Positions 635 to 60,355 of a stretch of DNA of 64,000 nucleotides are shown one piece after another (within the stretch, counting starts at the first letter, position 1; each line of letters opens with the position of its first letter). The notes under the pieces were generated by a model, which was not told the origin of the DNA, made no database searches, and was given only the letters and a program-made list of their open reading frames with translations. The translations under genes were made by a program, and so were the position numbers. The stretch covers positions 372,001-436,000 of the forward strand of contig NZ_JAGIOD010000002.1 of the NCBI RefSeq assembly GCF_017876545.1, in the 5' to 3' direction. This stretch comes from Brachybacterium sacelli. GTDB lineage: Bacteria > Actinomycetota > Actinomycetes > Actinomycetales > Dermabacteraceae.

Positions 635-1633
635 GTGCTCATTGCACAGCGCCCCACGCTGACCGAAGAGGTCGTGTCGGACAACCGCTCCCGGTTCGTC
701 ATCGAGCCGCTCGAGCCGGGCTTCGGCTACACCCTCGGCAACTCCCTGCGCCGCACCCTGCTGTCCTCCATCCCCGGCGCCGCGGTCACCTCGATCCGCA
801 TCGACGGCGTGCTGCACGAGTTCAGCACCGTCCCCGGGGTCAAGGAGGACATCACCGAGGTCATCCTCAACATCAAGAACCTCGTCGTCTCCTCGGAGAA
901 CGACGAGCCGGTCGTGATGTACCTGCGTCGCGAGGAAGCCGGTCACGTGACCGCGGCCGACATCACCCCGCCCGCCGGCGTGGAGATCCACAATCCCGAC
1001 CTCCACATCGCGACCCTCAACGAGAAGGGCCGTCTGGAGATCGAGCTGATCGTCGAGCGCGGCCGCGGCTACGTCTCCGCCGCTCAGAACAAGGGCATCG
1101 ACGGAGAGATCGGCCGGGTCCCGGTCGACTCGATCTACTCGCCCGTGCTCAAGGTGACCTACAAGGTCGAGGCGACCCGTGTCGAGCAGCGCACCGACTT
1201 CGACAAGCTGATCGTCGACGTCGAGACCAAGCCGGCCATCTCCCCGCGCGACGCGCTGGCTTCCGCCGGCAAGACGCTGGTCGAGCTGTTCGGTCTGGCC
1301 CACGAGCTGAACCAGGAGGCGGAGGGCATCGAGATCGGCCCGTCGCCGACCGACCAGGCGCTGGCCGCCGACCTGGCGCTGCCGATCAACGACCTCAACC
1401 TCACGGTGCGGTCGTACAACTGCCTCATGCGCGAGGGTGTGCACACCGTCGGCGAGCTGACCGCCCGTTCCGAGGCCGATCTGCTCGACATCCGCAACTT
1501 CGGGCAGAAGTCCATCGACGAGGTCAAGGCCAAGCTCGCCGACCTCGGACTGTCGCTGAAGGACTCCCCGGCCGGCTTCGACCCGTCCGCCGCCCTCGAG
1601 TCCTACTCCGACGACTTCGGCGACCAGTACTGA
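635..1633 (+). CDS. rpoA: DNA-directed RNA polymerase subunit alpha
   Basis: Alpha subunit, which nucleates RNA polymerase assembly and contacts promoter UP elements and activators. The 332-residue protein has the N-terminal dimerisation domain ([19 protein letters not shown] near the start) and the C-terminal helix-hairpin-helix domain ([20 protein letters not shown], then [17 protein letters not shown]). The start is GTG at 635, with an AAAGGA ribosome-binding site about 8 nt upstream. It lies 158 nt after rpsK and 27 nt before rplQ, so it is probably co-transcribed with rplQ. The acidic C-terminal tail is normal for actinobacteria. Confidence 0.99.
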
Positions 1634-1660
1634 CCTTCATCTTCACCAAGGAGAACGACC

Positions 1661-2155
1661 ATGCCTGCACCCACCAAGGGCGCGCGCCTCGGCGGATCCC
1701 CCGCGCATGAGCGGATGATCCTCGCCAACCTCGCCACCGAGCTGTTCCGCCACAAGGCGATCACCACGACGGAGTCCAAGGCCAAGCGGCTGCGTCCGTA
1801 CGCGGAGCGCCTGGTCACCTTCGCCAAGAAGGGCGACCTCGCCTCCCGCCGTCGCGTGATGCGCACGGTCCGCGACCGTGGCGTCGTGTACTCGCTGTTC
1901 GAGGAGATCGCCCCGACCTTCTCGGAGCGTCCCGGCGGCTACACCCGCATCACCAAGACCGGTCCCCGCAAGGGCGACAACGCCCCGATGGCCGTCATCG
2001 AGCTGGTCCAGGAGGAGTACTCCCCGAAGCAGGCCGTGGTGAAGGAGGCCGAGGGCGCCGCGAAGAACGCGTCCGCGACCGACGAGACCGCCGCCGCGGA
2101 GGAGACTCCCGAGGTTCCCGCTGAGGACGCCGCGGAGGAGACGAAGGAGGCCTGA
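1661..2155 (+). CDS. rplQ: 50S ribosomal protein L17
   Basis: Large-subunit ribosomal protein near the exit tunnel. The core L17 fold occupies residues 1-118 ([20 protein letters not shown] at the start; [23 protein letters not shown]). It is followed by an acidic Ala/Glu-rich C-terminal extension of about 45 residues, common in actinobacterial L17. ATG at 1661 has a GGAGAA ribosome-binding site. It is the last gene of the rpsK-rpoA-rplQ operon and is followed by a strong hairpin terminator. truA, often the next gene in other actinobacteria, is found 25 kb away in this window. Confidence 0.98.
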
Positions 2156-2172
2156 GCCCCTTCCCTCCCTGA

Positions 2173-2216
2173 GACGACGGAGCCCGCCGAGCATCTGCTC
2201 GGCGGGCTCCGTCGTC
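2173..2216 (+). terminator. Rho-independent-type terminator after rplQ
   Basis: A perfect 21-bp inverted repeat (2173-2193 pairing with 2196-2216) with a very small loop lies 18 nt past the rplQ stop, between rplQ (+) and the convergent purL (-). The stem has the sequence ACGGAGCCCGCCGAGCA on its left side. There is no long T-tract, as is usual for actinobacterial terminators. It can work in both directions. Confidence 0.88.
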
Positions 2217-2289
2217 TTCGCGGTGACGGGAGGTCCGGTGGCGTCCCGGTCAGCAATTCGACGCCGACGCCCGTGCCGCGGCGGCGGCC

Positions 2290-4620
2290 TCAGCCGAAGT
2301 AGCGCGGCAGCGTCCCCTCGCGCAGCTCGCGCAGGGCGCCGATGCCGTAGCTCCCGAGTCCGGCGATCGCCAGCTCCTCGCCGCCGGTGCTGCCCAGGCG
2401 CAGTGCCGGGACGCCGTGCGCCGCGGCCGAGGCGAGGAGCTGCTCCTCCGTCTCCGTGGGCACCGACACCAGGGCTCGGGACTGGGACTCGGAGAACAGC
2501 GCGGTGAACAGGTCCACCCCGTCGCGTGCGGCGAGGGCATCGAGGTCCACCGAGGCACCGGTGCCGAAGCGGACGACGGCCTCGACGAGAGCCTGCACCA
2601 GCCCGCCCTCGGACAGGTCGTGCGCGGCGGAGACGAGCCCGTCGGCGCTCGCCCCGATCAGCACCTCGGCCAGCGCGGCCTCGGCGGCGAGGTCGACCTG
2701 CGGGGGGAGGCCGCCGAGGTGGTCATGGGCCACCTGGGCCCAGGCCGAGCCGGAGAGCTCCTCGCGGGTGGTCCCGAGCAGGATCACGCTCTCACCCGCG
2801 TGCTGCCAGCCCGAGGGCACCCGGCGAGCGACGTCGTCGAACACGCCGAGCACGCCCACGACCGGGGTGGGGTGGATGGCGGAGTCGAGCCGACCGGGCT
2901 CTCCGGTGGAGTTGTACAGCGAGACGTTGCCGCCGGTGACCGGGACGCCGAGCGTCTCGCAGGCCTCCGCGAGGCCGCCGATCGCCTCGACCAGCTGCCA
3001 CATGGGGCCGGGGTCCTCGGGGGAGCCGAAGTTCAGGCAGTCGGTGACCGCCAGCGGGCGGGCGCCGGCGGCGGCGACGTTGCGATAGGCCTCCGCGAGC
3101 GCGAGCTGGGCGCCGGTGCGCGGGTCGAGCTTGGTGTAGCGGCCGCTGGCGTCGGTCGCCAGTGCGACCCCGCGCCCGGTGGTCTCGTCGACCCGCAGCA
3201 CGCCGGCGTCGTCGGGCATCGCGAGCGCGGTGCTACCGCCGACGTAGCGGTCGTACTGATCGGTGATCCAGCCCTTCGAGGCGAGGTTCGGGGAGGCGAC
3301 CAGCTCGCGGATCGCGTGGCCGATCTGCTCGGCGCCCTCCGGGCGGGGCAGGTCCTCGGCGCGGTCGGCCTGCAGGCCGTCCTGCCAGTCGGGCCGGGCG
3401 TAGGGGCGGTCGTAGACCGGGCTGTCGACCGCGACGGTGGTGGGATCGACGTCGACGATCCGGTGGCCGTGATGGTCGATGGTCAGCCGGCCGTCGCCCG
3501 TGACCTCGCCGATGACGGCGGCCTCGACGTCCCACTTCGCGACGATCGCCTCGAACTCGGCCAGCTTCGCGGGACTGACCACCGCCATCATCCGCTCCTG
3601 GGACTCGCTCATGAGGATCTCCCCGGCGGTCAGGGTGGGATCGCGCAGCAGCACGTCCTCGAGGTCGATGCGCATGCCGGAGCCGCCGTTGGCGGCCAGC
3701 TCGCTGGTGGCGCAGGAGATGCCCGCGGCGCCGAGGTCCTGGATGCCCTCGACGGTGCCGGCGGCGAACAGCTCGAGGCAGCACTCGATGAGGACCTTCT
3801 CCATGAAGGGGTCGCCCACCTGGACGCTGGGGCGCTTGACGGGGCCGTCCTCGTCGAAGGTCTCCGAGGCGAGGATCGAGGCACCGCCGATGCCGTCCCC
3901 GCCGGTGCGGGCACCGAACAGGACGACCTTGTTGCCGGGCCCGGTGGCAGAGGCGAGGTGGATGTCCTCGTGGCGCATCACGCCGATGGACAGGGCGTTG
4001 ACCAGGGGGTTGGTCTGGTAGGAGGCATCGAAGACGGTCTCGCCGCCGATGTTGGGCAGGCCGAGGGAGTTGCCGTAGCCGCCGACGCCGGAGACCACGC
4101 CGTGGACCACGCGCGCCGTATCGGGATGATCGATCGCCCCGAAGCGCAGCTGGTCCATGACGGCGACGGGCCGGGCGCCCATGGAGATGATGTCGCGCAC
4201 GATGCCGCCGACCCCGGTCGCGGCGCCCTGGTGGGGCTCGACGTAGCTGGGGTGATTGTGGGACTCGACCTTGAAGGTCACCGCCCAGCCGTCGCCGATG
4301 TCGACGACCCCCGCGTTCTCGCCCATGCCCACCAGCAGCTTCGCGCGCATCTCCTCGGTGGTGTGCGCGCCGAAGGTGCGCAGGTGCTTCTTCGAGGACT
4401 TGTAGGAGCAGTGCTCGGACCACATCACCGAGTACATGGCCAGCTCGGCGTTGGTGGGACGCCGGCCGAGGATCTCGCGGATGCTCGCGTACTCGCCGTC
4501 GGTGAGGCCGAGCTCCGCGTAGGGCTGGGTCTGCTCAGGGGTGCCGGAGGCATGCTCGATGGTGTCGACATCCCCGGGCGAGGCGGGCGAGGGGGAGGGG
4601 TGAGCGTCGTCAGCGGTCAT
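2290..4620 (-). CDS. purL: Phosphoribosylformylglycinamidine synthase subunit PurL
   Basis: Catalyses the ATP-dependent amidation of FGAR to FGAM, the fourth step of purine synthesis. It needs PurQ (glutaminase) and PurS, both encoded at 17-18 kb here. About 776 residues matches the small bacterial PurL type rather than the 1,300-residue fused type. Conserved segments include [15 protein letters not shown] near the N-terminus and the AIRS-like motifs GGNVSLYN and HDLSEGGL. The start is uncertain: ATG at 4620 is chosen because the Pro/Ser-rich leader already precedes the conserved domain; ATG at 4641 is in frame. The gene faces rplQ and is the first of three separated purine loci in the window. 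Confidence 0.95.
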
Positions 4621-4709
4621 CGCGGGGTCGAATCCGTTCATCACGTGGGCACAGGGGCGCGGGCGGTCGCCGGCGCCGGGATGCGGGCGGAATCCGCCGC
4701 GGCGCTCAC

Positions 4710-4715
4710 AGTCTA
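4710..4715 (-). promoter_or_regulatory. Candidate purL -10 box (TAGACT)
   Basis: On the minus strand TAGACT lies about 90 nt upstream of the purL ATG at 4620, which would give a leader of roughly 80 nt. No clear -35 hexamer is visible. Support is only the TANNNT match and the position. Confidence 0.35.
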
Positions 4716-4896
4716 CGATCGCCGCGCGTCCTCGGGCAGGACCGCCCACCGGGCCGACGGCGGGGGTCGACGGGTGCCACCGTGTCCGGCCCGGGCGCCC
4801 GCGGGCGCCCGCGGGACCGGGTCAGGTCCTCCGCCGCTGCGGGGTGGCCGGCGGCGGGGACCCGGCCCGGATCGGGGCGAGGAGACTCCGTCGGCC

Positions 4897-7035
4897 TCAG
4901 TGCGAACCCGCCGCGCGGCGGGCCCGCTTCTCCCGGTCCCGCAGGGCCTTCTCGCTGACCGGGGTATCGGCGCCGGCCCGCTGCGCACGGAAGTACGCGG
5001 CGGCCTCCTCCTGGCGCTCCTGCTCCCCGCCCAGGGCGATCGGGGCACGCACGTGCCCGGGGCGGATGTCGAAGGAGGCGACGAGGTCCAGGGCGTGGGG
5101 ACGCAGGCGCCACAGTAGACGGCGCAGATCCGAGTCGATCTGCCGACCGCGCTGGGTGGAGATCATGCCGCCCAGGAGGAACCAGGCCAGATCGTCCTCG
5201 ATGGTGGACAGCCCGAACAGGTCGCGCACATCGGTGAGCACCGACCGCGTTCCCTCGTCCTCGAAGCGCTCGATCGCCGTGGTGAAGGCGCGCCAGCGGA
5301 CCAGATCGGCGTGGGCGCGCGCGGCGTCGAGCATCTCCACCTGATGCTTGTTGACCTCGGCGGCGGCGTCGGCCGGATTCATCTTCGAGGCCGAGCGGAG
5401 TGAGAGCGCGACCTCCTCGACCTTCACCCGGGCGCGCGCGGAGAGCATCTCCTCCTGGAAGTCGCTCTGGCGCATCGAGTCGGAGGCCCGACGGGGATTG
5501 CCGCGGTCGCTGAGGTCCTGCGCAAGGCTCGCCCAGGGGGTGTGGCGCTTGGCGAGGACTTCGGCGCGCTGGGCGATGAAACGCCCGATGCCGGCGCGGT
5601 CCACGTTCTTCAGCTCGGAGGTGTAGTCGCTGAGCAGACGCTTGGCGACCAGCTGCAGCAGCACCGTGTTGTCGCCCTCGAAGGTGGTGTACACGTCGAG
5701 GTCCTGATGCAGGCCCACCAGCTGGTTCTCGGCGATGAAACCGGCGCCGCCGCAGGCCTCACGGCACTCCTGGATGGTGTCCAGGGCCAGCCGCGTGGAG
5801 GTGGGCTTGAGTGCGGCGGCGAGGGTCTCGAGGTCCTCGCGGGCCTCGGGATCGTCGGTGCGGTCGGAGAATACGTCGTCGAAGGCGTGCAGGAGCTGCT
5901 CGTGCGCGAAGGCGCCGGCGTAGGTGGCCGCGAGCTTCGGCAGCAGGCGATGCAGATGCGCCTGGTAGTCCATCAGCACCGTCTCCCGGGTGGGGTCGGC
6001 GGCCGTGAACTGGCGGCGCTGGGTGGCGTAGGTGATCGCGATGTGCAGTGCGAGCTGGCTCGCCCGGTTCGCGGAGCCGTCCAGGGACACGCGCCCCTGG
6101 ACCAGGGTCCCCAGCATCGTGAAGAACCGGCGACCGGGGGACTCGATCGGCGAGGTGTAGGTCCCGTCGGCGGCGACGTCGCCGTACCGGTTCAGCAGGT
6201 TCGTGCGCGGCACACGCACGTGGTCGAAGGCCAGGCGCCCGTTGTCGATCCCGTTCAGACCTCCCTTGGCGCCGTCGTCCTCGCTGGCCACCCCGGGCAG
6301 CAGCGTTCCGTCGGCATCGCGCACCGGCACGTAGAAGCAGTGCACGCCGTGGTCGACGCCCCCGGTGATGAGCCGGGCGAAGACCGTGGCGGCCTTCGCA
6401 TCGAGGGCGGCGTTGCCGAGGAACTCCTTCCAGGCGGCGCGGATGGGAGTGTTCAGCACCCACTCCTCGGTGGCGGGGTCGTAGGTCGCGGTGGTCGCGA
6501 GCGACTGCACATCGGAGCCGTGCCCGATCTCGGTCATCGCGAAAGCGCCGGGGGTGGCCAGGCTCATCGCGTCGGGAACCCAGGCCTTCTGCTGCTGCTC
6601 GTCGCCGAGCTGGACGATCGCGGAGGTGAACAGCCCCCACTGCACGCCGGCCTTGATCTGCAGCGAGGGATCGGCGACCACGAGCTCCTCGAAGCCGGCG
6701 ACGTTCGCGCCGTTGTCGTTGGGGCCGCCGAGGTGCTCGGGCAGCATCGGGAAGGAGACGTCCTCCTCGGCCAGCAGCTGCATCTGGGCGGAGGTGCGCT
6801 CGCGGTGCTCCGCGACCGTGGCGTCCAGCGGGCGATGCAGCTCGGGGCGGGCGGCGCGCTCACGGGCGGCCCGGCGGGTGTCGGCCCAGGACCCCAGCAG
6901 GGCCTCGGCGACGGCCTCGACGTCGAGGCGGGCGGCACCGCTCGGGGGGACCGGGATCGGGCCGGTGGGGGTGGCGGAGCTCGCCGCGGTGGCGGGCGTG
7001 CTGGGAGTGGGGGCGTTGTCGGCGTGGACGGTCAT
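4897..7035 (-). CDS. Acyl-CoA dehydrogenase/oxidase family protein
   Basis: FAD enzyme that introduces the alpha,beta double bond into acyl-CoA, the first step of beta-oxidation. The 712-residue protein resembles the acyl-CoA oxidase branch: the MTEIGHGSD motif (residues about 167-175) followed by LATTATYDPATEEWVLNTP, the central YATQRRQF segment, CREACGGAGF, and an ACOX-like C-terminal domain. Members of the mycobacterial FadE5 type at the comparable locus are about 610 residues. Its ATG overlaps the tetR stop codon by 4 nt (ATGA), so it is co-transcribed with the regulator. Whether it passes electrons to ETF or directly to oxygen cannot be read from the sequence. Confidence 0.88.
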   Translation of the reverse strand: MTVHADNAPTPSTPATAASSATPTGPIPVPPSGAARLDVEAVAEALLGSWADTRRAARERAARPELHRPLDATVAEHRERTSAQMQLLAEEDVSFPMLPEHLGGPNDNGANVAGFEELVVADPSLQIKAGVQWGLFTSAIVQLGDEQQQKAWVPDAMSLATPGAFAMTEIGHGSDVQSLATTATYDPATEEWVLNTPIRAAWKEFLGNAALDAKAATVFARLITGGVDHGVHCFYVPVRDADGTLLPGVASEDDGAKGGLNGIDNGRLAFDHVRVPRTNLLNRYGDVAADGTYTSPIESPGRRFFTMLGTLVQGRVSLDGSANRASQLALHIAITYATQRRQFTAADPTRETVLMDYQAHLHRLLPKLAATYAGAFAHEQLLHAFDDVFSDRTDDPEAREDLETLAAALKPTSTRLALDTIQECREACGGAGFIAENQLVGLHQDLDVYTTFEGDNTVLLQLVAKRLLSDYTSELKNVDRAGIGRFIAQRAEVLAKRHTPWASLAQDLSDRGNPRRASDSMRQSDFQEEMLSARARVKVEEVALSLRSASKMNPADAAAEVNKHQVEMLDAARAHADLVRWRAFTTAIERFEDEGTRSVLTDVRDLFGLSTIEDDLAWFLLGGMISTQRGRQIDSDLRRLLWRLRPHALDLVASFDIRPGHVRAPIALGGEQERQEEAAAYFRAQRAGADTPVSEKALRDREKRARRAAGSH

Positions 7036-16916: not shown

Positions 16917-16984
16917 GACGAGACGGTGCCGCGCCCGGTGCCGTCGCCGGTCCCGTCCGCTGCCACCGGGTCGTCGGCCGCGTA

Positions 16985-17040
16985 GTCATGCACCCCGGTG
17001 ACCGGTGCGCGGCGGCACACCGGTCGCCGGGGTGCATGAC
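16985..17040. terminator. Long hairpin between convergent genes
   Basis: A 23-bp inverted repeat (16985-17007 with 17018-17040, one G-T pair) starting GTCATGCACCCCGG lies between the methyltransferase (+) and purQ (-). It is placed to end both transcripts. No T-tract. Confidence 0.82.
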
Positions 17041-17071
17041 CGTGCGGAGCGCTCCGTGAGGGCCCTGTGGC

Positions 17072-28805: not shown

Positions 28806-29324
28806 GTGACTGAGACCACCCCCGATACCACCGAGGCCCTCGAAGCCGTGACCGAAGAGACGGACGAGAACTTCCCGTCGAACTTCACCACCGAGTCCAC
28901 CGGCGAGGCCGCCGTCGGCGCCGGTCAGTCCGCGACCGCGCCGGGCTACGGCACCGGTCGTCGCAAGCAGGCCGTGGCCCGCGTGCGTCTGATCCCCGGC
29001 TCCGGCCAGTGGACCATCAACGACCGCAGCCTCGAGGACTACTTCCCGAACAAGCTGCACCAGCAGGAGGTCAACGACCCGTTCACGGTCCTCGACCTCC
29101 AGGGCCGTTTCGACGTCGTCGTCCGCCTCACCGGCGGTGGCCCGTCCGGTCAGGCCGGTGCCGTGCGCCTCGGCGTCGCCCGTGCCCTCAACGAGATCGA
29201 TCGGGACAACAACCGCCCGACGCTCAAGAAGGCCGGCTTCCTCAAGCGCGACGCGCGCATCATCGAGCGCAAGAAGGCCGGACTGAAGAAGGCCCGGAAG
29301 GCGCCGCAGTACTCCAAGCGCTGA
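28806..29324 (+). CDS. rpsI: 30S ribosomal protein S9
   Basis: Small-subunit protein whose C-terminal KR tail reaches the P-site tRNA. The 172-residue protein has an acidic N-terminal extension of about 45 residues, usual in actinobacteria, then the S9 core ([35 protein letters not shown]). It ends in YSKR as expected. GTG at 28806 follows AAGGAGAA. It is co-transcribed with rplM and followed by a terminator at 29376-29411. Confidence 0.98.
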
Positions 29325-29375
29325 TCCACGGCATCCCCACGGGATGCTGATCCGCGGCTCGTCCGCCGGATCGCT

Positions 29376-29411
29376 GACGATGCCCTCGACCTTAGGGTCG
29401 GGGGCATCGTC
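29376..29411 (+). terminator. Terminator after rpsI
   Basis: A 16-bp stem (29376-29391 with 29396-29411, one G-T pair) with a TTAG loop lies 51 nt after rpsI. It is a strong hairpin at the end of a ribosomal operon. Confidence 0.85.
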
Positions 29412-29472
29412 GTGTCCGGGGTGCGGTGGGTTGCGGGGCGAGGTGCGTGCAGTTCGGGGGTACATGGTCGGG

Positions 29473-29532
29473 TACTGGCGCTCAGCGAGGCGCTGTGGCC
29501 ATATAGCCAGAGCGCATGCCATAGCGCCAGTA
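29473..29532. repeat. Palindromic element E
   Basis: A 60-bp imperfect palindrome centred at 29502.5. Outer arms TACTGGCGCT/AGCGCCAGTA (29473-29482, 29523-29532), an inner GCGC/GCGC pair (29490-29493, 29512-29515) and a core GTGGCCATATAGCCAG (29495-29510) all share that centre. The core and symmetry match the elements at 54.6-56.9 kb. It lies between the rpsI terminator and the CaiB gene. Confidence 0.65.
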
Positions 29533-29548
29533 GTCGGAGAAGAGCGGG

Positions 29549-29710
29549 GCGAGACGGGTGAGGCAGGCGGGACAGGCGAGACCGGCCGGGCGAGACCCCC
29601 CGGGCGAGAGGGGCAGGCGAGGCGGGTGGGGCAGGCGGGATAGGCGAGACGGGCGGGGCGAGAGGGGCAGGCGAGACGGGTGGGGCAGGCCGGACGGGCG
29701 GGACGGGCGG
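29549..29710 (+). repeat. G-rich imperfect minisatellite
   Basis: About 160 nt built from GCGAGACGGG-type units. A 27-nt unit recurs at 29549-29575, 29617-29643 and 29671-29697 with few changes, and GCGAGAGGGGCAG occurs twice between them. The plus strand has runs such as GGGCGGGGCGAGAGGGG that could form a G-quadruplex. It lies immediately upstream of the CaiB-gene promoter. I see no coding signal in it. Confidence 0.75.
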
Positions 29711-35881: not shown

Positions 35882-35913
35882 CCCCGCCGGCCGCGCAGGG
35901 GCCCGATCGCCGT

Positions 35914-35949
35914 CTCAGGACCGATGCTGCGCATCACACAGGTCCTGAG
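35914..35949. terminator. Hairpin between glmM and coaA
   Basis: A perfect 9-bp stem (CTCAGGACC 35914-35922 with GGTCCTGAG 35941-35949) and an 18-nt loop lie between the convergent glmM and coaA genes. It is probably a bidirectional terminator. Just downstream, GCTGTGGGGCG is repeated at 35963 and 35986. Confidence 0.6.
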
Positions 35950-36040
35950 CCGGCAATCGGATGCTGTGGGGCGAGTCGGCCGGAAGCTGTGGGGCGGGGT
36001 CCGGGTGGCCCGGGGCGGCGGTGCACCCCGCCGGTGCGCC

Positions 36041-51950: not shown

Positions 51951-52135
51951 CGTGATGCGGCGCTGTGACGATCCGGTGTGGATCCCTCCGGCGCGTCCGG
52001 TGCACCCTCCGGCATCGTCGATAATGAGAGAGTGCGGTGAGTGGGTCGGGCCGCACAGCACCGGATCACGGTGCTCGGATGCCCGCGGCGAGTCGCGCAC
52101 GGGGGAGACACCCGACCCGAGGAGCGGAGGCTGCA

Positions 52136-52894
52136 GTGGACGACGACGGCCTTCTGTACCGCGTGTACGAGCGCCGGCTCATCAGGGAGCTCGAGGCCTT
52201 CGACCTCCCGCAGCACCTCGGCGTCATCGTCGACGGGAACCGACGGTGGGCGAAGGAAGCCGGGGAGACCACCGAGCACGGCCATCGCGTCGGCGCTGCG
52301 AAGATCGCGGAGTTCCTCTCCTGGTGCGAGGGCCTGCGGATCCCGCTGGTCACTGTGTGGATGCTGTCCACCGACAACCTCAGCCGCACCCCGGAGGAGC
52401 TGGAAGCGCTCTACGAGATCATCACCGCCACCGTCGAGCAGATCGCCGAGGCGGGGTACTGCGTACGGCTGGCCGGAACCGCCGAGGGCCTGCCCGAGGA
52501 GGTCCGCGGGGGCATCGCCCGGATCCAGGAGCGGGCCGCGCCGGAGTCGCAGCTGACGGTCAACGTCGCCATCGGCTACGGCGGGCGCGAGGAGATCGTC
52601 GACGCCGTCCGGGAGCTGGTGCGCGACCACGGCCAGCGGGGCCGCAGCCCCGAGCAGATCGCGGAGGCGATCAGTGTCGATTCGATCGCCGAACACCTCT
52701 ACACCCGCGGCCAGCCCGATCCCGACCTCATCATCCGCACCTCGGGGGAGCAGCGGCTCTCCGGTTTCCTGCTCTGGCAGTCGGTGCACTCCGAGTACTG
52801 GTTCTGCGAGACCTACTGGCCGGGCTTCCGCCGGGTCGACCTGCTACGTGCGCTGCGCGACTTCTGCCGGCGGGAGCGCCGCTTCGGCGCGTGA
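52136..52894 (+). CDS. uppS: Cis-isoprenyl diphosphate synthase
   Basis: Adds isoprene units in cis to make polyprenyl diphosphate for cell-wall lipid carriers. The 252-residue protein has the catalytic VIVDGNRRWAKEAG (Asp33) and the signature RTSGEQRLSGFLLWQSVHSEYWF. GTG at 52136 has a GGAGCGGAGG ribosome-binding site; GATAAT (52020-52025) is a candidate -10 box. The neighbour trhA corresponds to M. tuberculosis Rv1085c, and this gene to Rv1086, which is a short-chain Z-FPP synthase. The product chain length here is therefore uncertain. Confidence 0.93.
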   Translation: MDDDGLLYRVYERRLIRELEAFDLPQHLGVIVDGNRRWAKEAGETTEHGHRVGAAKIAEFLSWCEGLRIPLVTVWMLSTDNLSRTPEELEALYEIITATVEQIAEAGYCVRLAGTAEGLPEEVRGGIARIQERAAPESQLTVNVAIGYGGREEIVDAVRELVRDHGQRGRSPEQIAEAISVDSIAEHLYTRGQPDPDLIIRTSGEQRLSGFLLWQSVHSEYWFCETYWPGFRRVDLLRALRDFCRRERRFGA

Positions 52895-53098
52895 GCCGCC
52901 CTCCGGCCCACGGCGACTCTCCGTGGCGCAGATCCCTCCCGTCGCGCCCCCGCGGTGGCAGACTGGCCGCACCGGGAGGTCGGCAGAACTCCGGGTGACG
53001 ATCGGGTGAATGTCGAGCCCGCACACGGCGGGACGCGCCCGAGAGCGGGAGCCGACGGGGCTAAGGTCCAGGCATCCGCGAGATTTCGGGAGGCTCCG

Positions 53099-54559
53099 AT
53101 GCATGAGACCACCACTGCCCGCGAGACGATGACCGCCGATCCGGCGCTCACCGGCGCCGGGGCCGGCATCGGCTCCGAGGTGATCGGTGAGGCGAACCCG
53201 GACGGTTCGCCCGTGGTGCCGTCGCTGGTGCCCGGGGCCGCCCAGCAGATGCTGGCCGACGTCGAGACCGGGCTGATCACCTACGTGCTGGACACCTCGG
53301 TGCTGCTGTCCGACCCGCTGTCGCTGCACCGATTCGCCGAGCACGACATCGTGCTGCCGATCGTGGTGGTCACCGAGCTCGAGGCCAAGCGCCACCACCC
53401 CGACCTCGGCTACTTCGCACGCCAGGCCCTGCGCCTCCTCGACGACCTGCGCGAGCTGTACGGGAACCTCTCGGTGCCGCTGCCGATCGGCAAGGACGGC
53501 GGCCACGTGCACGTCGAGCTGAACCACATGAGCCCCGCCTCGCTGCCCGACGGTTTCCGACTCGGGGACAACGACACCCGCATCCTCGCCGTCGCGAAGA
53601 ACCTGCAGCTCGAGGGTCACAACGTCGTGCTGGTCTCCAAGGACCTGCCGATGCGGATCAAGGCCTCGGCCTCGGGGATCCATGCCGAGGAGTACCGGGC
53701 CGAGCTCGCCCGCGACCGCGGCTACACCGGGATGGTCACGGCGGGTGTCGACGAGCAGACCATGACCGATCTCTACGACGGTCAGACCGTCGAGATCCCG
53801 GAGGTCGCCCACCAGCCCGTCCACACGGGGCTGACCATCACCAGCCCGCGCGGCTCGGCCCTGGGACGCGTGACCCGGGACAAGCAGGTGCGACTGGTCC
53901 AGGGCGATCAGACCGCGTTCGGGGTCGCCGGGCGTTCGGCCGAACAGCGCGTGGCGATCGACCTGCTGCAGGACGAGTCGGTCGGCATCGTGTCGCTGGG
54001 CGGTCGCGCCGGCACCGGCAAGAGCGCCCTCGCGCTGTGCTCGGGTCTCGAGGCGGTCCTCGAACGTCGCACCCAGCGCAGGATCATGGTGTTCCGTCCG
54101 CTGTTCTCCGTCGGCGGCCAGGAGCTCGGCTACCTGCCCGGCGACCAGAGCGAGAAGATGGGCCCCTGGGGGCAGGCCGTGTTCGACACGCTCGGCTCGA
54201 TGGTCTCCCAGAACGTCATCGACGAGGTGCTCTCGCGCGGCATGCTCGAGGTGCTGCCGCTGACGCACATCCGCGGCCGCTCCCTGCACGACGCCTTCGT
54301 GATCGTCGACGAGGCCCAGTCCCTGGAGCGCAACGTGCTACTGACGATGCTCTCCCGCATCGGGCAGAACTCCCGCGTGGTCCTCACCCACGACATCGCC
54401 CAGCGCGACAACCTGCGCATCGGCCGCTACGACGGCATCGCCTCGGTGGTCGAGGCGCTCAAGGAGAAGGAGCTGTTCGCGCACGTGACCCTGCAGCGCT
54501 CCGAGCGCTCGAAGGTCGCCGAGCTGGTCACCCACGTCCTGGACGAGCCCGTGATCTGA
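53099..54559 (+). CDS. PhoH2-type PIN domain-ATPase (ribonuclease/helicase)
   Basis: A 486-residue protein joining an N-terminal PIN nuclease domain (residues about 60-210, [13 protein letters not shown] with Asp65, and [13 protein letters not shown]) to a PhoH ATPase domain (Walker [17 protein letters not shown] in [12 protein letters not shown]). PhoH2 proteins show RNA helicase and RNase activity in vitro. ATG at 53099 follows GGGAGG; TAAGGT (53062-53067) is a candidate -10 box. It is collinear with M. tuberculosis Rv1095. Confidence 0.94.
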
Positions 54560-54617
54560 CCGCGGCGTCCGCGGGGCGGCTGGCACGGCACGGCACGGCG
54601 GAGCTGGTGTTGCCGGC

Positions 54618-54688
54618 CATGTCCTGAACGGGCCGCTGGTGACGTTAGCTGGCAATATTGCCACTTCGCCTCATCATCGGCCCGTCGG
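54618..54688. repeat. Palindromic element A
   Basis: A 71-nt element with about 85 percent identity (60/71) to element B. It is symmetric about 54656.5: CGGGCCG/CGGCCCG arms (54629-54635, 54678-54684), GGTGA/TCATC (54638-54642, 54671-54675, one G-T pair) and a perfect 14-bp core palindrome TGGCAATATTGCCA (54650-54663). Confidence 0.8.
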
Positions 54689-54774
54689 TGCTCGGTGCGG
54701 CGCGGCCTGGTGCGGCGGTCCTGGCGGAGGATGGGCGGCACGGTCCAGCCGATGCCGGGGTTGGCGGAGTGGGA

Positions 54775-54845
54775 CATGTCCTGGATGGGCCGCTGGTGAT
54801 GTGAGCTGGCAGCATCGCCAGGTCGCCTCACCGTCGGCCCGTCGG
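54775..54845. repeat. Palindromic element B
   Basis: Direct repeat of element A, 157 nt downstream, also starting CATGTCCTG and ending CCCGTCGG. Its centre is 54813.5. The arms GGGCCG/CGGCCC and GGTGA/TCACC pair perfectly; the core is CTGGCAGCATCGCCAG. Several differences from A keep base pairing, which suggests selection on the fold. Confidence 0.8.
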
Positions 54846-55012
54846 CACTACGGGAACGGACGGGGCGATCGGCCCAGGCCTGCCGGTGCCGGCAGCACTA
54901 CGGCGCCGGGAGAGGGCAACGGACGGCGCTGACGGCTCCTCCCCACGTCCCGATCATCCACAATCGTGGCCGTCTCTCCCACCAGACAGCACGGGGATGG
55001 TCCGATCGCCGA

Positions 55013-55933
55013 ATGAAGATCCAGGGAGTGATCCTCAAATCAGAGCTGTCAAGGGTCGAGCCGAATCCTCGTCGCCGTCGCGCCTGGCTGCGCGACGGCA
55101 CGGTTCGTTCTGCGGGGCAGTGGTACGTGACCTCTGAGGCGCCTGACGATCTGGTGGCGCTGCTCGCGCTGGGGGTGCGCCCCACCTGTCTGGAGGCCGC
55201 GGCTCTCCATGGTCTGTGGGTTCCGCTCGCGGACGGAGTCCACGCCTACCGCCCCCGAGCCGTGGAGGTCCCGCCTCCGACGCCCCACCTGATACAGATT
55301 CGACGTCACGTCGATCCGGAGACGAAAGAGCTGGTGCCGCTCCCGGAGCCCGCCGCCGGCGCACCCCGGCGCAGGCCGCAGCCCCTGGTGCTGCATGGCC
55401 CCCGCATGAGGGCGTGGGGAGGAGCCGATCCGGTCCCCGACATCATCCAGGCCCTCGATCACGCGGCACGCTGCATGTCTACCATGAAGGCGGCGATCCT
55501 CATCGAGTCCGCGCTCAATCAGGGCAGGCTCAGCAGGGCGGGACTGGAGCAACTTCTCGGGAAGCTCCCGCAGAGGTACCGGTCTCCGCTGTCCCGCGTC
55601 CGCTCCGACGCACAGTCCGGCACGGAGACGGCGGTGCGCTGGTGGCTGGAAGAGCGGTGCGTACGGGTCCGCAGCCAGGTGCAACTGGCGCTCGGGATCC
55701 GCGTCGATCTGCTGCTGGGCACCAACTGGGTGATCGAGTGCGACAGTCGGCGCTTCCACGACGATCCGGACCAGTACCGAGAGGACCGACGGCGGGATCT
55801 GGTGCTGGCTTCCCGCGGGTACCGGGTTACGAGGCTGACCTGGGAGCAGGTCTTTCTGGAGTGGAAGGCGACTGAGCGGATGCTGCAGACGATGCTCCGC
55901 CGGCGTGATCACCGTCGTGCGCTGCCCGCGTGA
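55013..55933 (+). CDS. DUF559 (Vsr-like) endonuclease-domain protein
   Basis: A 306-residue protein in two parts. Residues 1-90 resemble the winged-helix AbiEi-type N-terminus found in actinobacterial DUF559 proteins (VRPTCLEAAALHGLWVP). Residues about 200-295 form a PD-(D/E)XK nuclease-like domain: Glu205 (SGTETAVRWW), Asp232 (RVDLLL), Glu242 and Asp244 in VIECDSRRFH (His249), then DRRRDLVLASRGYRVTRLTWEQV. The metal-site residues look intact. Function of the family is unproven; it may be a defence or DNA-processing nuclease. ATG 55013 has only a weak ribosome-binding site. The gene and its surroundings look like an insertion between phoH and fumC. Confidence 0.82.
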   Translation: MKIQGVILKSELSRVEPNPRRRRAWLRDGTVRSAGQWYVTSEAPDDLVALLALGVRPTCLEAAALHGLWVPLADGVHAYRPRAVEVPPPTPHLIQIRRHVDPETKELVPLPEPAAGAPRRRPQPLVLHGPRMRAWGGADPVPDIIQALDHAARCMSTMKAAILIESALNQGRLSRAGLEQLLGKLPQRYRSPLSRVRSDAQSGTETAVRWWLEERCVRVRSQVQLALGIRVDLLLGTNWVIECDSRRFHDDPDQYREDRRRDLVLASRGYRVTRLTWEQVFLEWKATERMLQTMLRRRDHRRALPA

Positions 55934-55970
55934 GACGGTGCGCCACGGGAGCGGATGCCGCGGAAGGTCA

Positions 55971-56044
55971 TGTCACACACGGGCCGATGCCGTGACGAGC
56001 TGTTGATATCGCCAGCCCGCATCGTCACCGGCCTGTGTGTGACA
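55971..56044. repeat. Palindromic element C (74-bp palindrome)
   Basis: Outer arms TGTCACACAC (55971-55980) and GTGTGTGACA (56035-56044) are perfect. GGGCC (55981-55985) pairs with GGCCT (56030-56034, one G-T pair), and the core CTGTTGATATCGCCAG (56000-56015) contains GATATC. All are symmetric about 56007.5. It lies between the convergent DUF559 and NUDIX genes and could terminate both. Confidence 0.8.
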
Positions 56045-56084
56045 GGGACCTGGTCGGCTAGGCAACCTACCGTCGTCGGAGCGG

Positions 56085-56741
56085 TCAGCCGAGCAGTTCG
56101 AGACCCTCGAGCGTCGAGTCGCGCAATAGTGTCCTCGCTCCGACGACCTCGACACCCAGGAGACGGCCGTCGGCATCGACATCGAGGATGATCGTGCCTC
56201 CGGGTCGCTCGATCACCGTGTTCTCGACGGCCTCGCCGTGCCCGATGTGCGAGACGAGGGAGAAGTACGCCGCGTCAGCCTGTGCATCGAAGGTCGCGGC
56301 GCCGTCGTCGAGCAACGTCAGAGGTGCATAGGAAGGGAATTGCTGCAGAGCCTCTACGGCCAGCAGCGAGAGCTGATCGATTGTGCGCCCTGCAGCCAGG
56401 ACGATCCCATTCACGTCTTCGTCGTCGATGTCGTGGCGGAGATCGCCCTCCACCTGCACTTCGACGATCCTGCCCCGGTGTCGGAGGTCGATCGCGCAGC
56501 CTTTGCTATCCGCCGTGACATGGATGTCGAAGGATCGCGGCATCGAACTGCTGAACAGACGGGCGCCTGTCTCCTCGCGGAGCTCACGGGCGAGCGTCTC
56601 CGCGGTCGTTTCGCCGGGTTCGGGGGAGCCGCCGGGCAAGTCGAGCAGACCGGTGTAGGGGCCGCGGCTCTTACGGACCAGGACGAGTCTGCCCTGATCC
56701 CGCCACAGGCCGTAGATGCCGAAGTGCTGAGTAGTTTCCAT
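56085..56741 (-). CDS. NUDIX hydrolase fused to a DUF2283-like domain
   Basis: A 218-residue protein. Residues 1-140 are a NUDIX hydrolase with an intact box (Gly38 to Ala60: GGSPEPGETTAETLARELRE, then ETGA), which hydrolyses nucleoside diphosphate derivatives in the family. Residues about 152-205 (FDAQADAAYFSLVSHIGHGE, VIERPGGTIILDVDADGRL, LGVEVVGARTLL) match the DUF2283 pattern, normally a small free-standing protein. ATG at 56741 is chosen because the NUDIX fold starts there; an upstream in-frame ATG at 56867 would add 42 residues without family character. The base composition is less GC-rich than in neighbouring core genes. Confidence 0.8.
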   Translation of the reverse strand: METTQHFGIYGLWRDQGRLVLVRKSRGPYTGLLDLPGGSPEPGETTAETLARELREETGARLFSSSMPRSFDIHVTADSKGCAIDLRHRGRIVEVQVEGDLRHDIDDEDVNGIVLAAGRTIDQLSLLAVEALQQFPSYAPLTLLDDGAATFDAQADAAYFSLVSHIGHGEAVENTVIERPGGTIILDVDADGRLLGVEVVGARTLLRDSTLEGLELLG

Positions 56742-56886
56742 CCCAGGATCCCATTCACGACGCGGGCCGGAAGGAATTTTCCGCCACCGCTGGTCGCGGA
56801 AGCTGTCTGCGTTGTGGTGGATCACGTCGTGAGGGGTCCGTGTGTCCGGGTGCGCGGTAGCTCTCATGGCGGGCCGCGTCGTGCGA

Positions 56887-56940
56887 TGGCCGTTGGTGCG
56901 GTGACCTGGCCATATCGACAGCTCCCCTCACCAGAGGCCT
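56887..56940. repeat. Palindromic element D
   Basis: Centred at 56913.5, with GGCC/GGCC (56888-56891, 56936-56939), GGTG/CACC (56895-56898, 56929-56932) and core CTGGCCATATCGACAG (56906-56921). The distances of these pairs from the centre are the same as in elements A and B. Confidence 0.7.
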
Positions 56941-56987
56941 TCCCGCGACACCGCCGGGGCCGGTGCCGGGTAGGACGGCTCATAGTC

Positions 56988-57043
56988 CGGCGACGGGGCT
57001 CCTCCCGGCGACGGGGTGCCCCACCGGCGATGGGACGCCCCGT
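56988..57043 (+). repeat. Degenerate tandem repeat
   Basis: CCGGCGACGGGG-type units begin at 56988, 57006 and 57025 (periods of 18 and 19 nt), followed by a partial inverted CCCCGTCGC. It lies 75 nt past the fumC stop. Confidence 0.5.
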
Positions 57044-57117
57044 CGCTGGGGTCGATCTGGAGCTGGGCATCTCAGGGCGTGCCGCGGGGCCAGGCCGAGG
57101 TCGGGCCGTGGCCGAGA

Positions 57118-58533
57118 TCAAGCCTTCGGAGCCGTCATCGAGAGCACGTCGAGGGCGGAATCGAGCTGCTGCTCGGTGAGCTCGCCGCGCTCGACGAAGC
57201 CCAGCGCGAGGACTGCCTCGCGCACGGAGATGCGCTCGGCCACCGCGTGCTTGGCGATCTTCGCGGCACTCTCGTAGCCGATCAGGCTGTTCAGCGGGGT
57301 CACGATCGAGGGGGAGGCCTCGGCGTAGAAGCGGGCCTTCTCCTCGTTCGCGACCAGACCGTCGACCGTCTTGTCGGCCAGCGCCACGCTCGCGTTGGCG
57401 AGCAGACGGATCGACTCCAGCAGGCTCGTGCCCATCAGCGGGATCTGCACGTTGAGCTCGAAGGAGCCCTGCGCGCCGCCCCAGGCGACGGCGGCGTCGT
57501 TGCCGACGATCTTCGCGCACACCATGAGCACGGCCTCGGGGATCACCGGGTTGACCTTGCCCGGCATGATCGAGGAGCCCGGCTGCAGGTCCGGGATCGC
57601 GATCTCGCCCAGACCGGTGTTGGGGCCGGAGCCCATCCAGCGCAGGTCGTTGCAGATCTTGGTGACGGAGACGGCGATCGTGCGCAGCGCTCCGGACATC
57701 TCGACGAGACCGTCGCGCGCCGACTGCGCCTCGAAGTGGTTGCGCGCCTCGGTCAGCGGAAGCCCGGTCTGCTCGGCGAGGTTCGCGATGACCTTCTGCG
57801 GGAAGCCGGCCGGGGTGTTGATACCGGTGCCCACGGCGGTGCCGCCCTGAGGGACCTCGGCGGTCCGCGGCAGGGCCGCCTCGACCCGCTCGATGCCGTA
57901 GCGGATCGCGGCCGCGTAGCCGCCGAACTCCTGGCCGAGGGTGACCGGGGTGGCGTCCATGAGGTGGGTGCGGCCGGACTTCACCACGGCCTTCCACGCC
58001 TCGGCCTTGGTCTCCAGTGCCTCGGCGAGGTGGGCGAGGGCGGGCAGCAGCGTCTCGACGACGCCCGCGGTGACCGCGACGTGCACCGAGGTGGGGAACA
58101 CGTCGTTGGAGGACTGCGAGCAGTTCACGTGATCGTTGGGGTGGACGTCGAGCTCGCCGCCGGAGGCGAGGGTCGCGAGCACCTCGTTCATGTTCATGTT
58201 CGAGCTGGTGCCGGAGCCGGTCTGGTACGTGTCCACCGGGAACTGGTCATCGTGCTTGCCGGCGACGACCTCGTCGGCGGCCGCGATGATGGCGCCGGCG
58301 ATGTCCGCCCCGAGGACGCCCAGCTCGCGGTTGGCGCGTGCCGCGGCCTTCTTCACCTGGGCCAGGGCGTGGATATGCGCGGGCTCCAGGCCCTGTCCGG
58401 AGATCGGGAAGTTCTCCACCGCGCGCTGGGTCTGGGCGCGGTACAGGGCCGAGGCGGGCACGCGCACCTCTCCCATGGTGTCGTGCTCGATGCGGTAGCC
58501 GTCCTGAGTGGTGTCGGGCGTGGACTGGGACAT
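57118..58533 (-). CDS. fumC: Class II fumarate hydratase
   Basis: Iron-independent fumarase of the TCA cycle. The 471-residue protein has the superfamily signature [11 protein letters not shown], plus [18 protein letters not shown] and [14 protein letters not shown] (substrate site). ATG at 58533 has a strong GAGGGAGG ribosome-binding site. In M. tuberculosis the collinear gene is Rv1098c. The PfkB gene lies 70 nt upstream in the same direction and may be co-transcribed. Confidence 0.97.
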
Positions 58534-58603
58534 GGAGAGGCCTCCCTCGGGGTTGCGGTGGCTGGGTGCGGGGTGCAGCGGGTGGGACGGTCGACGGAGC
58601 GGA

Positions 58604-59515
58604 TCAGGTGAGCTCGTGGCTCCACGGGGGATTCGCCCCGGCCCGCGAGACGGTGATGGCAGCGAGTGAGGCCGCACGGCGCAGCACGGTCGCGAGGTCG
58701 TCCGACGGGATGGCCGCCAGCTGCTCGCGACGGTCCGCGCCCAACAGGCCCTTGGCCGCGAGGGCATCGAGGACGCCGGCGGAGAAGGTGTCCCCGGCGC
58801 CGACGGTGTCGACTGCCTTGACGGTCACGGGGGAGACCTGGACCCGGCCGGAGCGGGCGAAGGCGACCGCACCCTCGCCGCCGCGGGTCATGACGGTCAG
58901 CGCCGGCCCGTGCGCGAGCCAGGAGGCGACCACGTCCTCGACGTCGTCGGTGCCGTACAGCCAGGCCACGTCCTCGTCGGAGGCCTTGACGACGTCGCTG
59001 AGGGCGATGTTCGCCTCGACCCGCTCCCGCACGGCGGCCGGGTCGCCCATCAGGGTGGGGCGGGCATTGGGGTCGTAGCTGATCGTTGCACGATCTCGGG
59101 TGCGCCGCAGTACGTCCACGACGGTGGCCGCCCCGGGGACCATCACGGCCGCGAGGGACGAGGTGTGCACGGCATCGACCTGCTCGGGCAGCCCGGAGGG
59201 GTCCGGGTCCCACACCAGGTCGAAGGTGTACGTGGCGGCGCCGGTCGGGTCCAGCGTGGCCTGGGCGGTCGAGGTGGGGGCGTCGACCGAGCTGCCGGGG
59301 GTGAGCGCGACGCCGGACTCGGCCAGGTGCGCGCGGATCGCCTCGCCGCGGTCGTCGCGGCCGATGCGGGTGAGCAGGTGGGCGGCGTGGCCGAGGCGGC
59401 TGAGGGCCACGGCCACGTTCAGGGGGGATCCGCCGGGATGCTCGCGCCGCGCGCCGTCCGCGTCGACGACGATGTCGGTGAGAGCTTCTCCAGCGATGAG
59501 GAATGTCGCGGTCAC
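58604..59515 (-). CDS. PfkB family carbohydrate kinase
   Basis: A 303-residue ribokinase-like sugar kinase. It has the N-terminal GG motif ([17 protein letters not shown]) and the C-terminal signature with the catalytic Asp in [18 protein letters not shown]. It resembles fructokinases or 2-keto-3-deoxygluconate kinases, but the substrate cannot be fixed. GTG at 59515 is chosen because the fold starts there and GATGAT lies 6 nt upstream. It occupies the place where glpX is found between fumC and the DUF4245 gene in M. tuberculosis. Confidence 0.9.
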
Positions 59516-59680
59516 CGCTCGATCATCGCAGGTTTCCCCGGTCAGGGCGAACTCCGAGGACTTCATCGGCCACGGCGGCGCGGATCGCGGGGGATCCGCG
59601 TGCTCCCTGGCCCAGGGCCGTGCAGGTATCGCCCGGTGCCCGCGGCACGCACCCTGGGAACGAGACTGCCCGATGGCGAG

Positions 59681-59686
59681 GACAAT
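59681..59686 (+). promoter_or_regulatory. -10 box of DUF4245 gene (GACAAT)
   Basis: GACAAT ends 6 nt before ATG 59693. The six-nucleotide spacer is GGGGGC, which may instead act as a weak ribosome-binding site. Confidence 0.45.
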
Positions 59687-59692
59687 GGGGGC

Positions 59693-60355
59693 ATGCACGT
59701 GCCCCACGACCAGACCCCGGAGGCGCTCGAGAGCGCGGAGGATCCCGCGACCTCGGAGACCCCGCAGCCGACGGTGGAACCGCGTCCGCAGCCGAAATCC
59801 GCCTATGAGCTGCCGTCGAAAAAGAACACGGTGCTGCGCAACATGGTCTGGGCGCTCGCGCTGACCATGGCGGTGGTGGTCGTGGTCGGCATCGCGTTCT
59901 TCGGGGTGGGCAGCGACGCAGGGCGGGAGCCGCTGGCGAACTCGGAGCTGGACGTGGCCGCGAGCGCCGAGCGCGCCCAGGACGTCGCGGACTTCCCGGT
60001 CGCTGCGCCGGAGCCGGGGGAGGGGTGGACGGAGCGCTCGGCGCGCTTCACGACGGGGGAGTCTGCGCAGTGGACGGTCGAGTACACCTCCCCGAGCGAA
60101 CATCTGGTGACCCTCACCGAGGAAAGCGAGGTCAGCGCGCCGTTGCTGTCCTCCGTGCTCCCGGGGGCGACGCTCGAGGAGGAGCTCAGCATCGACGGCG
60201 CCGACTGCCAGGTGCTCAGCGGCGGCGAGAGCGGGGCGACGAAGCGCGGCATCTCCTGCCAGGGCGAGGAATTCGGCCTGCTCGTGCACGGTGCGACGGA
60301 CCGCGAGGAGCTCCAGGCCCTGATGGAGCGGGCACTCGCCGGCGTGCGGGAGTGA
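59693..60355 (+). CDS. DUF4245 membrane-anchored protein
   Basis: A 220-residue protein: a cytosolic N-terminus of about 50 residues, one transmembrane helix (residues about 55-78, MVWALALTMAVVVVVGIAFFGV), and an extracytoplasmic domain with two cysteines (GADCQVLSGG and KRGISCQGEE) that probably form a disulfide. It matches DUF4245, a family found beside fumC/glpX and xseAB in actinobacteria (Rv1100). Function unknown. It is convergent with xseB with 24 nt between the stops. Confidence 0.85.
   Translation: MHVPHDQTPEALESAEDPATSETPQPTVEPRPQPKSAYELPSKKNTVLRNMVWALALTMAVVVVVGIAFFGVGSDAGREPLANSELDVAASAERAQDVADFPVAAPEPGEGWTERSARFTTGESAQWTVEYTSPSEHLVTLTEESEVSAPLLSSVLPGATLEEELSIDGADCQVLSGGESGATKRGISCQGEEFGLLVHGATDREELQALMERALAGVRE

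Follow-up and report, generated by a model that had tools for sequence, protein, structure and literature searches.

Dispersed palindromes and the nuclease genes they bracket in Brachybacterium look like a little-known type of mobile element

Palindromes and a nuclease gene near phoH and fumC

The window analysed here is a stretch of 64,000 nucleotides from the 4.87-Mb genome of Brachybacterium sacelli (G000; other G numbers denote the compared genomes). Its phoH-fumC region, for which the gene names come from the initial annotation, holds a nuclease gene and four palindromes, A to D, and a fifth palindrome, E, lies elsewhere in the window:

54621..54692, no strand assigned: palindrome A, subfamily I, a 72-bp unit (match of the model R2 at G000:C2:426619-426694)
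54778..54849, no strand assigned: palindrome B, subfamily I, upstream of the nuclease gene
55013..55933, plus strand: nuclease gene, 306 aa, with an AbiEi-like region and a Vsr/EDxHD-type nuclease domain
55972..56043, no strand assigned: palindrome C, subfamily I, downstream of the nuclease gene
56878..56949, no strand assigned: palindrome D, subfamily I, past the Nudix gene
29467..29538, no strand assigned: palindrome E, subfamily II, a solo copy

Palindromes A, B, C, and D are centred at 54656.5, 54813.5, 56007.5, and 56913.5, respectively. They lie where the initial annotation had placed them, align without gaps about a single centre, and all fall outside the genes called there, as had been proposed; some of the extents then given were nevertheless too short. 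The fifth copy claimed at that time, for which no position was given, may correspond to palindrome E, though this belongs to the second subfamily. Over the 30 innermost symmetric positions, A has 22 pairs and B, C, and D have 21 each, against a background mean of 9.0 (sd 2.7) over all window centres; four centres in the window reach 22 pairs and eight reach 21. Taken singly, A-D are strong palindromes, not unique ones, and it is their likeness to one another that sets them apart. The window scan also returned a palindrome at 16973-17052 with the highest score (25/30 pairs; GGTCATGCACCCCGG arm), whose sequence is unlike the A-E family, an imperfect palindrome at 35892-35971 (21/30 pairs; CCGAT..TCAGGACC arms), which may belong to another such family, and a GC-rich inverted repeat at 2155-2234 (24/30 pairs), which resembles an ordinary intrinsic terminator.

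The 306-aa protein matches PF18741 (REase_MTES_1575, E 2.1e-8) and PF04480 (DUF559, E 0.0045), both under the curated cut-offs; at E 0.01, PF18741 matches 37 of 37 family members and PF04480 27 of 37. It has a Vsr/EDxHD nuclease fold, an assignment made at the level of the fold. Weak PADLOC matches were obtained to AbiEi (E 0.0041), a homing endonuclease (E 0.00035), and Hhe (E 0.009), and NCBIfam gave scattered weak matches only for the family. The codon use of the gene may be unusual, since a gene caller trained on codon usage in the window overlooked it. The next gene downstream, on the opposite strand, encodes a Nudix domain fused to DUF2283 (56085-56867) and sits between C and D; no AbiEii toxin gene adjoins the nuclease gene at this locus. 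At E 1e-10, the sole other match in G000 is a second nuclease gene outside the window, C1:1113408-1114226, which sits between two subfamily-II copies that are 99% identical to each other.

A dispersed family of 72-bp units

A model built from A-D only (R1) matched strongly, among the G000 candidates scored, only A-D themselves, because the arm sequences of subfamily II differ, a limit of the model; including G000, it had matches in 21 of 38 genomes of the genus at E 0.1. Subfamily II, first shown by the palindrome centred at 29502.5 and by the loci of weak R1 matches, reads GTCGAGTACTGGCGCTATGGCATGCGC.CTGGC.AT... and has the same core, ends, and length as subfamily I. In an ungapped alignment of 44 sequences (A3), 82.9% of cells are paired; shuffles give 67.7%, and sliding the partner gives no more than 42.9%. 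Of the 34 position pairs, 26 carry changes on both sides. A covariance search of the genome, as proposed in the initial annotation, was made with the model used after this alignment (R2) and did return an excess over chance: at least 29 distinct places in 4.87 Mb (58 matches over both strands, best-strand E at most 3.2e-6), comprising A-D and 25 subfamily-II copies. Since some 100-150 of about 1200-6000 candidates per genome were scored in the genome searches, copy counts are lower bounds. Across the genus, R2 has matches in 26 of 38 genomes at E 0.01; at E 1e-4 with stricter filters, matches were found in 25 of 38, and in none of nine genomes from five other genera of the same family. At G000:C1:641831-642060 (L078, L214), subfamily-II left-arm pieces stand in tandem with a 41-bp period and five starts, the last of which merges into a full palindrome. 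G025 has 54 matches over both strands, corresponding to up to 27 copies, with no clade-I or clade-II nuclease gene found in that genome; its copies are possibly an orphan population.

Aligned at their centres, 119 copies from 13 genomes delimit a unit of about 72 bp, whose ends are sharp at different sites. Positions 34-36 from the centre form the GTC/GAC ends (paired 0.85-0.89), positions 37-38 are partially paired and conserved, and past 36-38 bases there is background only (paired 0.26-0.41, at most 0.09 bit). The expected intergenic preference is borne out by 116 of the 119 copies, as judged with a rough gene caller, one that overlooked the nuclease gene of the window. As to gene context, 43 of 91 solo copies lie in tandem gaps, 33 in convergent gaps, and 12 in divergent gaps, with 3 within a called gene. 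No consistent target-site duplication was seen by eye among the 29 copies of G000, where the whole unit is one palindrome. Five solos lie at orthologous sites in sister species, so that movement is not rapid. Between these five orthologous pairs of copies, 35 position pairs have changed, 7 of them on both sides, and 5 stay Watson-Crick by double change; in this small sample of sequences, the changes would fit either selection for symmetry or arm-to-arm correction.

Passive duplication combined with arm-to-arm correction, with no dedicated enzyme, could produce such a family. The copies at C1:1103013 and 1103219 have common flanks and are therefore local duplications, and those at 964736/964898 and 1410311/1410439 have common flanks on at least one side. 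Conservation nevertheless ends at the unit limits over the 119 copies, and the palindromes vary jointly with the nuclease (see below), which makes this the most improbable of the alternatives weighed here.

It is also very unlikely that the palindromes are an RNA or single-stranded DNA hairpin device, such as a terminator or an RNA processing site, copied round the genome with the nuclease gene as a bystander. The predicted hairpins of A-D are indeed strong (z -2.8 to -6.6), and the compensatory changes that the initial annotation had proposed to count are in excess, with 252 cells paired through changes on both sides versus 117.7 in shuffles that ignore relatedness; the double changes between orthologous copies count on the same side. 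Selection on an RNA helix is expected to favour G-U pairs. In tandem-gene gaps, however, the transcribed strand carries 80 G-U and 81 A-C mismatches in 50 copies, of which 7 are gene-flanking copies with a less safe strand, and 69 and 68, respectively, in the 43 solos alone. This equality disfavours the RNA hairpin suggested at the outset, a wobble test of this kind speaking to RNA and not to a single-stranded DNA hairpin. Given the missing G-U excess and the spread of solos over gene orientations, among them the 12 in divergent gaps, the palindrome is seemingly kept at the DNA level. Searches of 52000-60000 and 29300-29700 gave no Rfam match at gathering level; below it were mir-278 (25.5 bits, gathering 55) over C on the minus strand and P36 (16.5 bits, gathering 36) beside E.

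Matched repeats around nuclease genes and the states of single sites

Comparison of orthologous phoH-fumC intervals, as the initial annotation had advised, was informative. Among 35 phoH loci from sister genomes, some of which end at contig ends, R2 copies lie on both sides of a nuclease gene in G001, G004, G010, G012, and G021, the bracketed genes being 64-74% identical to window 55013-55933; weak single R2 matches occur near fumC in G009 and G028. Genus-wide, 39 of 65 nuclease loci, down to 29-36% identity, share a repeat between their upstream and downstream 450-bp flanks, with scores that exceed the 99% level for 250 mismatched pairs of flanks and, in 38 cases, every one of the 250, and none of 92 ordinary G000 genes does so under the same test. 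These 65 loci are 70 less 4 duplicates and 1 short flank, and orthologous loci among them are non-independent. The remaining 26 include the window gene (16.5 against a threshold of 22), which fails the test because B and C are only 61% alike; the bracketing of this gene is thus a model-based one, resting on the covariance model. Each protein clade has its own distinct flank repeats.

Palindromy played no part in that test. By a strict criterion, 18 of the 39 matched pairs are palindromic about a single centre without gaps, and 37 are inverted repeats under a looser test, run after the strict one, in which loops are allowed. The R2 family is symmetric right to its centre, but 21 of the 39 fail the ungapped test; the loops or offset arms of most matched pairs fit a hairpin better than a dimer on duplex DNA, and the many looped palindromes speak for the hairpin device to that extent. 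Against it stands the tie of the palindromes to one gene family.

Similar flanks occur outside the genus. Among the best 80 of 234 matches, 26 of 41 loci (44 less L401, L402, and L412 on short contigs) share a flank repeat with 600-bp flanks and a threshold of 16.1, and 14 exceed all 474 controls; the passing loci include Janibacter, Trueperella, Arcanobacterium, Agreia, Herbiconiux, Tessaracoccus, Agrococcus, and Propionicimonas. Since 14 of these 26 shared repeats are inverted repeats, the wider claim stands on fewer loci than 26. The repeat of J. limosus is found at nine places in that species and at eight in J. indicus, two in each adjoining the nuclease gene; three further genomes, in which the nuclease genes carry other flanks, gave no match to it.

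Palindromes and proteins also vary together. Across 26 loci (27 chosen by hand, 1 omitted for its short protein), palindrome similarity tracks protein identity (Mantel r 0.667, 0 of 5000 permutations), a correlation that co-inheritance alone could produce. Solo copies tend to be closest to the gene-flanking palindromes of their own genome: this holds for 24/25 in G000, 7/7 in G010, 10/13 in G012, 8/10 in G001, 3/4 in G021, and 4/4 in G023. In the other six of the 12 genomes, solos match poorly, 1 of 18 in total (G004 1/2; G014 0/2, G037 0/2, G013 0/6, G011 0/3, G034 0/3), and such unmatched solos may be relics of a gene since lost or replaced. When flank sets were permuted among the 12 genomes, the observed mean was never reached in 20000 trials. 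This comparison covers 81 of the 91 solos, the 10 of G025 being set aside as that genome has no gene flank, and uses a hand-picked subset of R1 and R2 matches that favours R2-like subtypes, with A and D counted as solos. By a hand tally, 14 of 15 genomes with a clade-I or clade-II gene have palindrome matches, as do 12 of 23 without one (Fisher p 0.012).

Two sites occur with the gene, with a solo palindrome, or empty. At the first, which a UGD-like and a YhgE-like gene (names read from translations) delimit, the nuclease gene is present in G000, G004, G010, G014, G023, and G037, with R2 copies on both sides in all of these except G004, which has one. G009 has a single palindrome without the gene; G025 likewise has one palindrome and no gene beside the YhgE side, its UGD side being unmatched; G036 has neither, and G028 has other sequence. 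The tally sets aside G021 and G024, and for G014, as for G025, one alignment matched the YhgE side only. At the phoH-fumC site, G005 has a solo palindrome (28/28 pairs) matching the two that bracket the nuclease gene elsewhere in that genome, and 13 other gene-less intervals hold no palindrome with at least 19/28 pairs. In the protein tree, clade-I genes of phoH-fumC and of other loci are intermixed in one clade (100/99). The site states and the tree together show that the unit has been gained, lost, or moved, with a direction that we infer. A candidate for a clean empty site in the trio G011, G013, and G034 was rejected, as in G011 the right end of one solo persists with the rest missing, which is no pre-insertion site; neither in this trio nor at the UGD-YhgE site did a base-precise empty site align.

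An AbiEi-like nuclease might instead be autoregulated, with the palindromes as its operators; the dispersed copies would then mark a regulon or be inert decoys, and transposition would not have produced them. This is unlikely, since a simple operator model does not account for a matched downstream copy, an operator of 72 bp would be long, and 76 of the 91 solos lie in tandem or convergent gaps, even if tandem gaps may also hold a promoter; nor are gene, solo, and empty states at single sites expected of it. A protein-binding site, as raised in the initial annotation, remains part of the explanation that we prefer.

This preferred explanation, to which we give a probability of about two in three, is a mobile element that has the palindromes as its ends and also as its solo copies, and whose own nuclease recognises, cuts, and spreads them. 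The full element would consist of a nuclease gene between two palindromes. Through its AbiEi-like DNA-binding part and its Vsr/EDxHD nuclease, the protein, most likely acting on duplex DNA and as a dimer with one monomer per 36-bp arm, or alternatively on a folded single strand, would recognise its cognate palindrome and would cut or nick in or near the conserved TGGCnATATnGCCA centre. Repair of the break could then place further copies, of a palindrome or of the entire gene unit, at new intergenic sites or in existing solos, and recombination between the two flanking palindromes could drop the gene and leave a solo copy. Several observations count against this mobile element. At several nuclease loci, the flanking palindromes are whole copies on both sides, which would leave the full element open to attack by the enzyme that it encodes; there are also unmatched solos, unpaired loci, looped pairs, the 12 of 26 shared repeats outside the genus that are not inverted, solos retained at orthologous sites, no evident target-site duplication, no base-precise empty site, and gene-less genomes with matches.

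Comparison with known systems

The suggestion that these are REP/BIME-like or MITE-like mobile palindromes with a partner nuclease is supported by their dispersed intergenic copies, their genus-wide occurrence, and the bracketed nuclease gene. The partner is not RAYT-like: the bracketed gene belongs to PF18741/DUF559, with a Vsr-like fold of the I-Bth0305I kind. Like REP/RAYT systems (REPtrons), in which REPs and TnpA-REP are reported to have co-evolved (PMC8266576), the family has multi-copy extragenic palindromes and a nuclease gene flanked by cognate copies. Unlike them, it has a Vsr/EDxHD-type nuclease with an AbiEi-like region instead of a HUH Y1 transposase (TnpA-REP), and a 72-bp unit with GTC...GAC ends, where REPs are given as 20-40 bp (PMC3733652) and carry a GTAG (or CGTC) tag on one side. 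Layout and behaviour are thus REPtron-like, and the enzyme and repeat type place the family outside that group.

EDxHD homing endonucleases of the I-Bth0305I type share the kind of nuclease domain, but here it is joined to an AbiEi-like DNA-binding part in a free-standing gene with many solo copies of its palindrome, and two whole palindromes flank the gene, whereas a homing target is interrupted by it. The AbiEi antitoxin of AbiE systems differs in that the AbiEi-like part is here fused to a nuclease, with phoH and the Nudix gene as neighbours in the window. All family members compared match PF18741, and most also match PF04480. The MTES_1575_REase has been named as a Vsr-fold domain in a giant HEPN protein, and the accessible text of that paper mentions no link to palindromes (PMC3710099), to which the present free-standing protein of about 300 aa is tied. 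No description of such an element was found in the titles and abstracts of literature on MTES_1575, DUF559, Vsr, REP, or Brachybacterium palindromes, searched mostly outside subscription papers.

The palindromes and their nuclease look like a little-known type of mobile element. A bolder proposal, to which we give somewhat less than even odds, is that of a categorically new class over the Actinobacteria, in which each nuclease lineage, combining a Vsr fold and an AbiEi-like reader, acts on palindromes of about 70-90 bp with a sequence particular to that lineage, and solo copies are both targets for re-invasion and a non-autonomous population. Such a mobile element would point to more than one origin of palindromic extragenic repeats that have a nuclease dedicated to them, with unrelated enzymes. 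It would also give a role to the large family of 'endonuclease domain-containing' (DUF559/MTES_1575) proteins, and would supply numerous natural pairs of an enzyme and its site, the sites being long and readable.
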